From positions 62,001 through 126,000 of the forward strand of contig NZ_JACHOB010000001.1 of NCBI RefSeq assembly GCF_014199615.1: a DNA stretch of 64,000 nucleotides, written 5' to 3'. Source of the DNA: Parvularcula dongshanensis (lineage in GTDB: Bacteria > Pseudomonadota > Alphaproteobacteria > Caulobacterales > Parvularculaceae). Within the stretch, counting starts at the first letter, position 1. Each line of letters begins with the position of its first letter. The translations under genes were made by a program, and so were the position numbers. The notes beneath the pieces are model-generated. The model worked only from the letters and a program-made list of their open reading frames with translations. It made no database searches and was not told where the DNA came from. This document shows positions 2,450-6,428 of the stretch, piece after piece.

Positions 2450-3607
2450 ATGTCCGTTACCCTCGACCTCTCCCGGCCGCGCCCGGCGCGCGAAGCGGCG
2501 CCCGTCAGCCTGATCGGCCTGACGCGGCCCGAACTCGCCGCACGCCTCGCCGAGGATCTCGGTCTGGACCCGAAGAAGGCGAAGATGCGCGCCTCCCAGG
2601 TCTGGGGTTGGCTCTACAATCACGGCGTGACGGACTTCGCCGCGATGACCAACATCGCGGGCCCGATGCGCGCGCAGATGGCGGAGCGCTACGTCCTCAC
2701 CCGCCCCGAGATGGTCGAGCGACGGGTCTCGTCGGACGGCACGCGCAAATACCTCTTGCGGTTCGGTCCCGGCGTCGAGGCCGAGGCGGTCTTCATCCCC
2801 GGCGTCGGCCGTGCGGGCGCGTTGTGCGTGTCGAGCCAGGTCGGCTGCACGCTGAACTGCACCTTCTGCCACACCGGCACCCAGGCCCTGGTTCGCAACC
2901 TGACGCCCGCCGAGATCGTCGGGCAGGTCCTCGCCTGCAAGGACGACATCGAGGAGTGGCCTTCGGGGCGCGACGACCGCAAGCTGTCGAACATCGTCTT
3001 CATGGGCATGGGCGAGCCGCTCTACGCGCTGGACAGCGTGGCCGCCGCGATCGACGTGATCTCCGACGGCGAGGGCATCTCGATCTCGCGCCGCCGCATC
3101 ACCGTGTCGACCTCGGGCGTCGTCAGCCAGATGGACGCGCTCGGCGAGCGCACGGACGCGATGCTGGCGATCAGCCTGCACGCGACCAACGACGCGCTCC
3201 GCGACGAGCTGGTCCCGATCAACAAGAAGTGGCCGATCGCAGAGCTCCTCGATGCCTGCCGCCGCTACCCCGGCACGTCGAACGCCAAGCGGATCACCTT
3301 CGAGTACGTGATGCTGAAGGGCGTCAACGACTCCGACGCCGAGGCGCGCGAGCTGGTGCGCCTGCTCAAGGGCATTCCCGCGAAGATCAACCTGATCCCG
3401 TTCAACCCCTGGGCCGGCTCTCCTTACGAGTGCTCGGATTGGGACCGGATCGAAGCCTTCGCGGAGATCATCAACCGCGCGGGCTACGCCTCGCCCATCC
3501 GTACGCCGCGGGGCCGCGACGTCGGCGCGGCCTGCGGGCAGCTCAAGACCGAGAGCGTCAAGCGCCGGGCAAGCGAGCTTCGCCGCGAGCGGGTCACAGC
3601 GGACTGA
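2450..3607 (+). CDS. rlmN: 23S rRNA (adenine2503-C2)-methyltransferase RlmN, also acting on tRNA in characterised homologues
   Basis: This 385-residue radical-SAM enzyme methylates C2 of A2503 in 23S rRNA. The radical-SAM cluster CxxxCxxC lies at Cys133, Cys137 and Cys140. The C-terminal catalytic Cys of the AACGQL motif is at about residue 362. The TVSTSG and SLHATND motifs typical of RlmN/Cfr are present. The chosen ATG (MSVTLDLSR) gives the normal family length; a longer frame to 2396 adds an unlikely stretch. Cfr is less likely because of the chromosomal housekeeping setting and the RlmN-like N-terminal domain. The 3' end overlaps the convergent 3594 gene by 14 bp. Confidence 0.95.
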
Positions 3608-4157
3608 CGGCCCGCCGTTCGCTGCTGGTGCGCCAGCCCCATGCCGACAGAGCGAACCAAGCGACCTCGAGGCCGAGGACGGGCCAGTTCGCGTCGACCG
3701 TCAGGACGGGAATGAGCGCGAGCGCGGCGAGCGCGTTGACGCCCAGGAAGCTCCGACGCGCGATCCGCCCGGCGGAGAACAGAAGGTACGACCCGCTGAA
3801 GGCCAAGGTGCCCGACCAGCCCAGCGTCTCGATGCCGCCGAGCGGCACGAAGGGAACCATCGCGACCCCGACGCCGCCAAGCGCCGCGAGTGGCCACAAA
3901 ACCCATTCGGGCCGCAAGGCGAGCGCCGGTCCCTCCTCCCGTCCGACGAGTGCGTAGAGGCTGACGACGGTCCAAAAGAGGTTCGTACCGACGGCCTGCC
4001 ATGACGCTTCGATGAAGGACGTGAAGGTCAGCGCCGCGGCGGCGGCCAGGTTCAGTGCGTAGTAGCGCGGGCTCGCCGCGCCCCCGGCCCGGGACAACAG
4101 GACGTGGTTGATCAGGTAGAGAAGCGTACCGGTCCAACCGATCAGGGCCAGGGTCAT
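3594..4157 (-). CDS. CBU_0592-like small integral membrane protein
   Basis: This 187-residue protein has five or six hydrophobic helices. Its first half fits the CBU_0592-type domain pattern: [18 protein letters not shown], a tryptophan-containing loop, then [12 protein letters not shown]. No biochemical function is established for the family as far as I know. The second half (about residues 80-180) repeats a similar hydrophobic layout, which suggests an internal duplication. The start ATG overlaps the stop of the solute-binding-like gene upstream by 4 bp (ATGA), so the two are probably translationally coupled. It is the last gene of the tsaD-gpsA minus-strand run. Confidence 0.75.
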
Positions 4158-5236
4158 GGTCCGACCGCGATGTGCATGTTCTTCACCAGAAGCTCGCGGC
4201 CGGACGAAGGACCATCGAGGATGAGCACGCGGCTCTCATCCGTCATCGTCTTGTAGAGGCGAGCCGTAGGAGAAGCGTTCGCGGCGCCGCAACTCCACGC
4301 GAGGACCATGAAGCTCGTCCCCGGCGGCAGGGCGAACCGGTCGCCGCTTTCCTCTGCTTGCGCGGCGGTCTCAACGCATTCGTGAACGGCGTCCCCGCCG
4401 AGCCATGACCGTCCGAGCGCGATCGGATTGCCCTCCGCCGCGATGATCCGTCCACGGTCGCGGGCCCGGTCCGGCAGCGGTGCCGGCAGGGTCTCGCCGG
4501 AAACCAGGAGTTCCTCCTCGACCAGGCGCGCATAGGCGGCGTCGAAGCGGGCCATCAGCGCTTCGCCTTCGGGGGTTCTCGGCGCGATGACGTGAAGCGG
4601 CGTTTCGTCCTCGATACCGGAGGCCGCGTGAACCAGCTTCTCCCACGCCGCGAACTCTCGGGGCAGGATCGCCTGCGCCACGGATTCGGCCATCGGTACG
4701 GCGTCGACCTCGCCGGCCAACAATTGCGCCAGCGCGTCCCGGTCACTGCCGAAGACACGCGCCGGTGCGTCCTGCCGCTCGATCAGGGCGTCGATCGTGG
4801 GACCGTAGGAGTAGCCGGCCACCCGCCCGAACAAGACCTCCCCCGCTTCCGCCCCCGCCGGCACGCCGTCCGCAGCACGGAAGCGGCGGTTCACGTAGAC
4901 GCGGTTGCGCATGGATAGGATCGGGGCCTTCGAGAAGACGACCTCTCCCGCCCGCTCGTCCGTCTTGATGTAGGGAAACGCCAGCGGCGCGCGCCCGTCG
5001 CGGACCAGGACGTAGGCGTAGCCGAAGTCGAAACGACGAAACTCGGGGAGGGCCCCCATCTCCGTCGCGACGAGGCGCATCACCCTGGTCGCGGCGCCGG
5101 GCTCTTCGCCTTCACCGCTTACGAAGGGCCGCCAAGTGTCGGTGTAGATCGGCAGTGCCTCCTGCGCGACGGACCTCGCGCCGAAGAAGCCCAGGAGCCC
5201 GATCAGGATGCTAGCGGCGCGTCTTCCAGTAGACAT
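4154..5236 (-). CDS. Exported solute-binding-like protein (SBP_bac_3-type) with extra C-terminal domain
   Basis: This 360-residue protein begins with a signal-peptide-like segment (RRAASILIGLLGFFGARSVAQ) ending near residue 25. Residues about 27-245 resemble the extracellular solute-binding family 3 fold: an initial strand LPIYTDTWRPF, a DFGYAYVLVRDGRAPLAFPY stretch, and a later GEVDAVPMAES. Residues about 250-360 form an extra region with two cysteines (HEC and WSC), which could form a disulphide in the periplasm. There is no ABC permease or ATPase nearby, so a sensor or partner role is as likely as transport. Its 5' end overlaps the preceding gene by 26 bp. Confidence 0.65.
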   Translation of the reverse strand: MSTGRRAASILIGLLGFFGARSVAQEALPIYTDTWRPFVSGEGEEPGAATRVMRLVATEMGALPEFRRFDFGYAYVLVRDGRAPLAFPYIKTDERAGEVVFSKAPILSMRNRVYVNRRFRAADGVPAGAEAGEVLFGRVAGYSYGPTIDALIERQDAPARVFGSDRDALAQLLAGEVDAVPMAESVAQAILPREFAAWEKLVHAASGIEDETPLHVIAPRTPEGEALMARFDAAYARLVEEELLVSGETLPAPLPDRARDRGRIIAAEGNPIALGRSWLGGDAVHECVETAAQAEESGDRFALPPGTSFMVLAWSCGAANASPTARLYKTMTDESRVLILDGPSSGRELLVKNMHIAVGP

Positions 5237-6428
5237 AGATGAGTCCCAAAGTTGCGACGAGCCCGAGGCCGGAGAGGAACATCAGATCGGCGTCGATGCC
5301 GGCAAAGAACGCGAGGATGTTCGAGACGCCCTCGTCCGTGTAGCCGAGCGCCGGGCGCGTCATCATCTCTCGGCTGAACTCGGTGAGGTACAAGGACAGT
5401 TCCAAGACCGCGATCAGACCGATCGCGACCAGGATGAGGTCGGTCACGAGGCCGCTGCGTTCCCCGCGCTGCGCCGTGATCTCGTCGATGCGCGCAGACG
5501 CGAGCGCGGCCATCCGTTCGCCGAGCGTCATGAGTTGATCGAACTGCCAACCATCCATGATGTCTTTGAGCAGACGAAGGTTATCGCGGTTCATGTATCC
5601 TTGCAGCGTCTCGTACTGGATACGAAGCATCTGCATTCTGGCTCGGCCTGCCCGCAGCTCTCGGCTCGCTTCCCTGATCTTCGGAGAGTGGAGGTTGACG
5701 GCCAGCGTCTCCCGCATGGCGTTGTTGAGCCGAACCTGCGCCGTCCAAACGGCCTGCGAGAGGCGCATGACGGCGGAGAGCTGCGCGAGGCGTTCCTCGG
5801 TCGTTCGTACCACGACGTAGTTCAGCCAAGTCATGGATTGGTCGCACCGTCCGTTCAGCACCGCCTCCGCGTCTTCTGGCCGGATGGTATGACGCAGCCA
5901 ATCGCGCACGAAGCGCTGTATCGCCGGAACCTCGAGGTCGGCCTCTTTCAAGACGGCGGCGCGGGATATCCAATTGCTTGGGGCAACTTCATTACGACGT
6001 TCTTCACGCAGAAGATCGGTCGGGATGCACCGTGCCAAGCGGAGGATGAGCATTTGCAAGTCCCGCTCATGCGCCGTCAGAAGCGCCTTCGTTCGCGCCT
6101 GCACCTCCTTTTGGACACGCTCTGCGTCGGGCGGCTCGTCCAAGTCGAGCGTCACCTCGGCGACGGTCACGCCGGTTTGGTAGATGTGGTAGCGGACTCG
6201 CGCCGTCCCCTCGGGCCGGCGCGGCGTGTAGACGACGAGCCTCAGGTCGTAGCCGTCCTCGGCCAGGTCTTCGAACTCGTTCCCGGCAATGCGGGCGTTC
6301 GGAACTTCGAGTTCACCGTCTTCGGGCGGCAGCGCCGCGAGCACGCGCCCGTAGGACGAGGCCCGAGGGTCGCAGCCGACGCGCAGGTGAAGCGCCGTGG
6401 AGATCGGCGCGTAGGTTAGAAACTGCAT
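5211..6428 (-). CDS. Unrecognised protein with large soluble helical domain and C-terminal membrane hairpin
   Basis: I do not recognise this 405-residue protein. Residues 1-95 look mixed alpha/beta. Residues about 100-320 are mostly long amphipathic helices rich in Arg, Glu and Leu. Two hydrophobic segments follow at about 328-348 and 382-401, and the chain ends in the basic tail WKTRR. The layout suggests a cytoplasmic domain anchored by a membrane hairpin. The ATG at 6428 is preferred because GAGGGGG lies just upstream; an ATG at 6482, abutting the gpsA stop, is possible. It is probably cotranscribed with gpsA and with the two genes downstream. Confidence 0.7.
   Translation of the reverse strand: MQFLTYAPISTALHLRVGCDPRASSYGRVLAALPPEDGELEVPNARIAGNEFEDLAEDGYDLRLVVYTPRRPEGTARVRYHIYQTGVTVAEVTLDLDEPPDAERVQKEVQARTKALLTAHERDLQMLILRLARCIPTDLLREERRNEVAPSNWISRAAVLKEADLEVPAIQRFVRDWLRHTIRPEDAEAVLNGRCDQSMTWLNYVVVRTTEERLAQLSAVMRLSQAVWTAQVRLNNAMRETLAVNLHSPKIREASRELRAGRARMQMLRIQYETLQGYMNRDNLRLLKDIMDGWQFDQLMTLGERMAALASARIDEITAQRGERSGLVTDLILVAIGLIAVLELSLYLTEFSREMMTRPALGYTDEGVSNILAFFAGIDADLMFLSGLGLVATLGLIYVYWKTRR

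Follow-up and report, generated by a model that had tools for sequence, protein, structure and literature searches.

The 64,000-nucleotide stretch of DNA from the marine bacterium Parvularcula dongshanensis analysed here (the window) carries on its minus strand three overlapping genes, named A, B and C, whose products almost certainly belong to one system. They encode an inner-membrane protein of CorA-like predicted architecture, an exported periplasmic binding protein and a duplicated CBU_0592 membrane protein. Tentatively, we favour the view that the three proteins form an inner-membrane, ATP-independent, binding-protein-dependent uptake or permeation complex. An earlier reading of the sequence (the original prediction) had proposed the three genes as an undescribed system, and our literature searches found no such set; within the searches made there was no mention of CBU_0592, and nothing on a set of this kind came up for CorA together with binding proteins or for SemiSWEET together with solute-binding proteins and TRAP. 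Many bacterial binding proteins are without a known partner. Here, in a scattered but recurrent case, strict co-inheritance assigns two membrane partners to a binding protein, and one of them (A) represents an unnamed family with a magnesium-channel-like architecture.

Organization and co-inheritance of the A-B-C cassette

The three genes are arranged as follows.

6428-5211, minus strand: gene A, 405 amino acids (aa), inner-membrane protein of CorA-like predicted architecture, outside known sequence families
5236-4154, minus strand: gene B, 360 aa, exported periplasmic binding protein
4157-3594, minus strand: gene C, 187 aa, membrane protein with a tandem duplication of CBU_0592, interpreted as seven transmembrane (TM) segments (3-1-3), N-out/C-in

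Genes A and B overlap by 26 bp (5211-5236) and genes B and C by 4 bp (4154-4157), from which the original prediction had concluded that they form one unit; the coordinates and the recurrence of the arrangement in other genomes bear this out. An alternative in-frame ATG upstream would extend A to 423 residues, and the homologues align from the 405-residue start. A scan for sigma-70 promoters at the locus returned no sites (0.2 in shuffled sequences), and a single terminator-like site was found, on the other strand (2.4 in shuffled sequences).

The distribution of the genes was analysed in 61 related genomes. Protein A was found in six of them, the C-terminal domain of B in the identical six, and full-length C (E below 1e-40) again in the identical six. 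Short, mostly single-unit CBU_0592 relatives of C are present in 33 of the 61 genomes, and 29 genomes beyond the six have only such short proteins. In a sample of 398 genomes of the phylum, A was detected strongly in G678 and G764 beside the window's genome, with weak A-like proteins in G361 and G734. The B C-terminal domain was present in 3/398 genomes (G000, G678 and G764), all carrying A, and full-length C (E below 1e-20) in 2/319 (G000 and G678), both carrying A; in these phylum samples many genomes had only part of their candidates scored (e.g. 13/20), and absences are therefore softer than among the 61 relatives. The full-length C of G764 was confirmed by a separate check.

A pattern scan of genome contigs yielded 23 loci, which together with the window, G004 and G678 represent 26 distinct genomes. 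The hosts include Parvularcula, Aquisalinus, Kordiimonas, Thiodiazotropha, Thalassotalea, Paraglaciecola, Kangiella, Colwellia, Cellvibrionaceae, Aliiglaciecola, Alteromonas and related metagenome-assembled genomes. Gene A is followed by B in 25/25 genomes where the contig continues (the contig of L045 ends inside A), and B is followed by C in 23 of 24. The sole exception is G678 (L018, L123), where A and B lie together and a full-length C is kept about 740 kb away; this genome is a natural split of the operon that retains all three genes. After the B start in L008, L024 and L025 and the C start in L008 had been reset to the homologous ATG, the A-B gap ranged from -26 to +24 in 22 of the 23 loci, the exception being L041 with its split A, and the B-C gap was -4 or -1 in 22 loci and +8 in one. 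Because both the order and the tight spacing recur in other genomes, the association of A, B and C is more than chance. The original prediction held that conserved co-occurrence away from gpsA would support a module, and that homologues never found together would speak against one; the homologues do co-occur, in the same six relatives and in the same order elsewhere, including loci away from gpsA.

The alignment of protein A (A4) covers 22 of the 26 distinct genomes, leaving out L008, L018, L041 (split A, short C frame) and L045 (contig end). Alignments A5 and A6 contain 21 rows each, L032 being omitted since its contig ends with B. Pairwise divergences over 21 genomes are correlated at 0.945 for A-B, 0.917 for A-C and 0.943 for B-C, values that shared descent alone could give. 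In Alteromonas sp. KUL49 (L041:7738-10422), two overlapping frames share the coding sequence of A, and C measures only 139 aa, which would reflect frameshifts or assembly errors.

Protein B is a binding protein with an additional C-terminal domain

Two domains were delimited in B.

4475..5161, minus strand: solute-binding protein (SBP) family-3 domain, about residues 26-254, located by Pfam and by VIA structure match
4157..4474, minus strand: conserved beta-rich C-terminal domain, residues 255-360, found only in A-carrying genomes of the samples searched

The earlier description of B as an exported, solute-binding-like protein with an added domain agrees with our analysis. An N-terminal hydrophobic segment is present, and the window protein matches SBP_bac_3 weakly (E 3e-4, 21 bits, under the gathering score of 26.4). 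Among the 21 B members, 18 match this family (PF00497) at E<=1, the best at 4.3e-7, and residues 26-254 show the full family-3 binding-protein fold (VIA Z 22.8 over 214 residues). In the cleft, P88 and R95 are conserved in all 21 sequences, and Y89, Y144, P181 and M182 in 20. The acidic pocket position, occupied by Asp in ArtJ and in an arginine-binding protein and by Glu in 4i62, is Thr in 15, Ala in five and Pro in one of the 21. In family-3 SBPs we presume that the pocket Arg and the acidic residue contact the carboxylate and the amino group of an amino acid, respectively; with the Arg kept and the acidic position replaced, the pocket residues therefore suggest a ligand that is carboxylated and is not an ordinary amino acid. 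B thus resembles family-3 SBPs and Venus flytrap sensor domains in its complete SBP fold and its conserved Arg, and it differs from family-3 SBPs in the replaced acidic residue, in the Pro and aromatic residues of the lobe-1 loop, in the extra C-terminal domain and in having no ABC partner among the scanned neighbours. For the C-terminal domain, an SH3/KOW-like fold would be our guess, based on its sequence.

This beta-rich domain could bind a polymer, and the scanned neighbours indicate no single pathway, as would suit a role in envelope upkeep, in which the target of B would be a lipid or a component of the cell wall, and A, B and C together would hold the envelope or remodel it, with neither passage nor signalling. 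The strong conservation of the B cleft and of the first TM segment of A argues against such a role, as does the patchy distribution (6/61 relatives), which suits a conditional trait rather than housekeeping, and we regard it as the least probable of the explanations considered.

The best Foldseek match of B is a histidine-kinase sensor domain, and ligand cores of GluR0 also rank in the structural list. These matches bear on the main rival to a permeation complex, namely a pure sensor complex without transport, in which B would report a periplasmic ligand or the envelope state to A, the cytoplasmic domain of A would alter the activity of a partner, and C would be accessory or stabilizing. Binding proteins that act through sensors are known from TorT/TorS, LuxP/LuxQ and XylFII/LytS, as described in PMC6321045, and B could similarly act through a membrane partner. 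The large cytoplasmic domain of A, the lack of a fixed metabolic neighbour and the signalling genes that precede the cassette in single lineages (L033 and L039) are also consistent with a sensor. However, none of the three proteins showed a recognisable kinase, cyclase or DNA-binding domain in profile searches, so that, unlike LuxP/LuxQ and TorT/TorS, the set has no recognised kinase or other output domain; no regulator is fixed beside the cassette, and a duplicated multi-pass C would be costly for a pure sensor. On balance, we consider the sensor explanation rather unlikely, but clearly the strongest of the alternatives.

Protein C is a duplicated CBU_0592 protein

Three parts of C were distinguished.

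3939..4151, minus strand: first repeat, about residues 3-73, from hhalign of the two halves
3849..3908, minus strand: linker hydrophobic segment, about residues 84-103, from hydropathy
3618..3827, minus strand: second repeat, about residues 111-180, from the CBU_0592 profile and hhalign

As had been proposed, C is a CBU_0592-like membrane protein: it exceeds the NCBIfam cut-off of this family (NF047864) with 51 bits versus 25, in two stretches. The two halves match one another (hhalign 95.6%, E 1.1e-8), and both match the family. Unlike a typical CBU_0592 protein, C has two units fused through a linker TM segment, and in our samples this form accompanies A and B only. Its hydropathy profile and its positive-inside counts agree with a 3-1-3 arrangement of seven TM segments, N-out/C-in, the segments of the second repeat passing the threshold weakly. 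Two parallel three-TM repeats joined by a single TM segment, with N-out/C-in orientation, make up the topology of SWEETs, which C may share. Membership of C in Bax1-I (PF01027) was considered and rejected, since only 2/21 members match and these fall below the cut-off; the best match (E 1.3e-5, 25.6 bits versus a cut-off of 34.1) to this 7-TM family is given by the Aquisalinus C (L024:10422-11018).

Protein A has a CorA-like predicted structure and no known sequence family

The membrane part of A comprises the following elements.

5379..5444, minus strand: TM1, residues 329-350, from hydropathy and conservation; the most conserved region of A
5283..5378, minus strand: outer (periplasmic) loop, residues 351-382, acidic; its proposed role is as a docking surface or filter
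5217..5282, minus strand: TM2, residues 383-404, from hydropathy; basic C-terminal end

A had been presented as an unrecognised 405-residue protein with a C-terminal membrane hairpin, and a clear match to a known unrelated family would have spoken against the proposed module. The window protein matched nothing in NCBIfam or PADLOC, and its one Pfam match, FtsX at E 0.13, stayed under the cut-off; among the 22 members of the A family, no Pfam family matches more than three, all weakly (best E 0.0044). Its N-terminal part is large, and two hydrophobic segments lie at the C-terminal end. Its AlphaFold model (predicted local distance difference test, pLDDT, 82.7; predicted TM-score, pTM, 0.74) begins with an alpha/beta part at the N terminus and continues with a helical part, the 62-residue helix that runs into TM1 (helix 296-357) and finally TM2 (helix 380-404), the outer loop being modelled poorly (pLDDT 49-74). 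From hydropathy and charge, both ends are predicted to be cytoplasmic (N-in/C-in), with the acidic loop outside.

The first six Foldseek matches of the model are CorA proteins, the best at E 6.3e-3 and none below 0.001. With VIA, 31 of the best 33 rows are CorA, MRS2, CmaX or ZntB, with Z up to 7.8 (rmsd 5.5, 217 residues) and the best unrelated row, a helical design, at 6.6; these rows re-examine the matches that Foldseek had supplied, and a Z under 8 may mean just a common arrangement, so that a CorA fold for A is a tentative assignment. In its predicted architecture, A resembles the 2-TM-GxN proteins (CorA, MRS2 and ZntB) in its large cytoplasmic domain, the long helix into TM1, the C-terminal TM2 and the cytoplasmic location of both ends. 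It differs from them in being encoded beside a periplasmic binding protein and C, and in sequence. Membership in CorA by sequence was rejected, as 0/22 members match PF01544 at E<=1, and hhalign of A against 30 CorA proteins from relatives gave a probability of 0.03%, versus 99.7% for the positive control (A-like proteins). GxN is described in PMC6972854 as the signature motif of the CorA family. In the last 90 residues this motif is missing from 21/22 A rows, and the remaining row has GYN inside the loop, not at TM1; as a control, G[MVIL]N was found in 29 of 30 CorA proteins. Another candidate, DUF155/RMND1 (PF02582), which had been suggested by the motif pattern of A, was likewise rejected (0/22 members match; hhalign probability 0.04% against 23 members), and a PF02582 search of G000 gave no match.

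Conservation in A, in mean bits, is 3.5 in TM1, 3.4 in the outer loop, 2.8 in TM2 and 2.2 in residues 1-100. T329 and D330 of TM1 are near-invariant (D330 in 20/22), and L333 and E343 are present in 22/22. Near the outer mouth, E354 is kept in all 22 rows and E350 in 18, and the conserved residues of the loop are S352, R353, E354, R358, P359, L361, D365, S369, A376, D379 and D381.

These features raise the possibility that A is itself a ligand-gated ion channel with a CorA fold and without GxN, which would be opened by a separate receptor, B, docking on the outer loop, and modulated by a C of SWEET topology. The structural matches to CorA-type proteins, the acidic residues conserved along TM1 and at the outer mouth (D330, E343, E350, E354), the N-in/C-in topology with an acidic outer loop and the resemblance of B to GluR0 ligand cores are consistent with such a channel, which, if real, would amount to a bacterial version of the glutamate-receptor principle, realised on the scaffold of a magnesium channel and built from separate genes. 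Nevertheless, the missing GxN, the lack of a CorA profile match, the Z below 8, with an unrelated helical design reaching 6.6, and the presence in the host genome of a separate CorA of its own make this explanation improbable.

Proposed function of the complex

The analysis establishes the association of the three genes, the predicted architecture and topology, the fold of B, the duplication of C and the pattern of conservation; we infer complex formation, docking site, ligand class and passage for the permeation complex that we tentatively favour. Exported B would bind a small solute, probably carboxylate-bearing, in its aromatic cleft and would dock on A's outer loop, either by its surface or by the beta domain at its C terminus. 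CorA-shaped A, in which a large cytoplasmic domain is accompanied by a long helix into TM1 and by TM2, would gate or couple passage through a membrane part formed by A and the duplicated seven-TM C. This reading is preferred because no output domain is recognised in the three proteins and because C resembles a two-repeat transporter.

The original prediction had considered signalling or envelope sensing likelier than transport on the ground that no ABC permease or ATPase is present, a conclusion that does not follow from this absence. A missing ABC ATPase is compatible with transport because ATP-independent binding-protein-dependent transporters exist, namely those of the TRAP type (PMC9352664). 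The 3-1-3 duplication of C is itself transporter-like. A-B-C shares with TRAP the combination of a binding protein and two membrane proteins without an ATPase, a general resemblance only, and no subunit matched: no Pfam match to DctQM/TctAB-type (TRAP/TTT) subunits was obtained in A or C members or in the scanned neighbours. If the proposal is true, it would add a route by which a binding protein can act across the inner membrane, beside ABC, TRAP/TTT and kinase sensors, and would provide a testable role for CBU_0592 membrane proteins.

The outer loop of A is a suggestive candidate for the surface that meets B, or for the outer mouth of a pore. Three distant A-like proteins without an adjacent B, two in G361 and one in G734, align with A over almost the full length (hhalign 99.7%). 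Among A columns that are at least 90% conserved, the residue is kept in at least two of the three A-like proteins in 11/33 cytoplasmic, 3/5 TM1 and 3/4 TM2 columns, and in 0/12 columns of the outer loop (Fisher p 0.011 against 17/42 elsewhere, p 0.023 against the cytoplasmic 11/33 alone), a post hoc comparison with three A-like proteins in which the poor alignment of the loop means that 0/12 overstates the contrast. The contrast is rated suggestive because of that alignment.

Several points weigh against a permeation complex. Besides the limits of the loop comparison and the softer absences in the phylum samples, a cytoplasmic block of A (S198-Y204) is likewise A-specific, so that the loop is not the sole specialised part. 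The likeness of A to CorA is borderline, being confined to the predicted structure, and many of the matching rows are Thermotoga CorA entries. None of the 21 C members matches the SWEET/SemiSWEET profiles (MtN3_slv, PQ-loop) at E<=1. Conduction or transport by A or C is putative, and sequence is unable to separate permeation from signalling.

In one of the A-like loci without B (L021:6490-8511), the stop of the A-like gene is directly followed by a gene for a 200-aa multi-TM protein (P0005), perhaps an analogous pair; homology of P0005 to C was not detected.

Genomic neighbourhood

In the window, the cassette sits between gpsA and the convergent rlmN, the ends of rlmN and C overlapping by 14 bp (3594-3607). 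The original prediction had regarded the three genes as hooked onto tsaD-gpsA, which is correct for the window and for Parvularcula oceani (L007/L023), the only loci examined with this linkage. In the other four Parvularculaceae loci, the 7 to 10 kb covered on either side contain none of eight genes that neighbour the cassette in the window, namely gpsA, tsaD, rlmN, Hpt, symporter, hemC, hemD and the gene that follows. The attachment is therefore incidental, and a housekeeping link to gpsA/tsaD/rlmN was ruled out, as the adjacency is not conserved. A fixed fourth gene was not found either: besides A-B-C, only a histidine-kinase-containing cluster (five loci) and an open reading frame on the strand opposite A (four loci) reach four loci at the clustering threshold used, and neither of them is fixed beside the cassette. 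Because the A-B-C order recurs with no fixed neighbours beyond it, the cassette is best described as a single co-inherited unit in unrelated places.

The flanking proteins scanned, 20 in number and drawn from 14 loci, comprise among others TonB receptors, a RadA-like ATPase, citrate synthase, PhoH, a MiaB-like protein, a hybrid histidine kinase and a nucleotide cyclase. No ABC permease or ATPase was found among these 20 proteins or among five window neighbours, and other neighbours or distant partners could still exist. A defence system was ruled out, since PADLOC gave no match. Phage or plasmid carriage was likewise rejected: tblastn against 50,697 phage records and 72,556 plasmid records gave no match, and viral contigs scanned by pattern contained no relative of A. 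For the Kordiimonas cassette, horizontal transfer was not retained as an explanation; in a quick tree this cassette is placed among those of gammaproteobacteria, yet a single alphaproteobacterial clade is not rejected (approximately unbiased test, p 0.18).

In Colwellia piezophila (L033:3488-7633), the gene preceding the cassette encodes a hybrid histidine kinase that carries sensor domains of the SBP_bac_3 family, an arrangement not fixed elsewhere, and in L039 the preceding gene encodes an adenylate/guanylate cyclase. The window itself encodes a stand-alone Hpt phosphotransfer protein (2030-2380; Pfam E 3e-16), located between an SNF-type symporter gene and rlmN.

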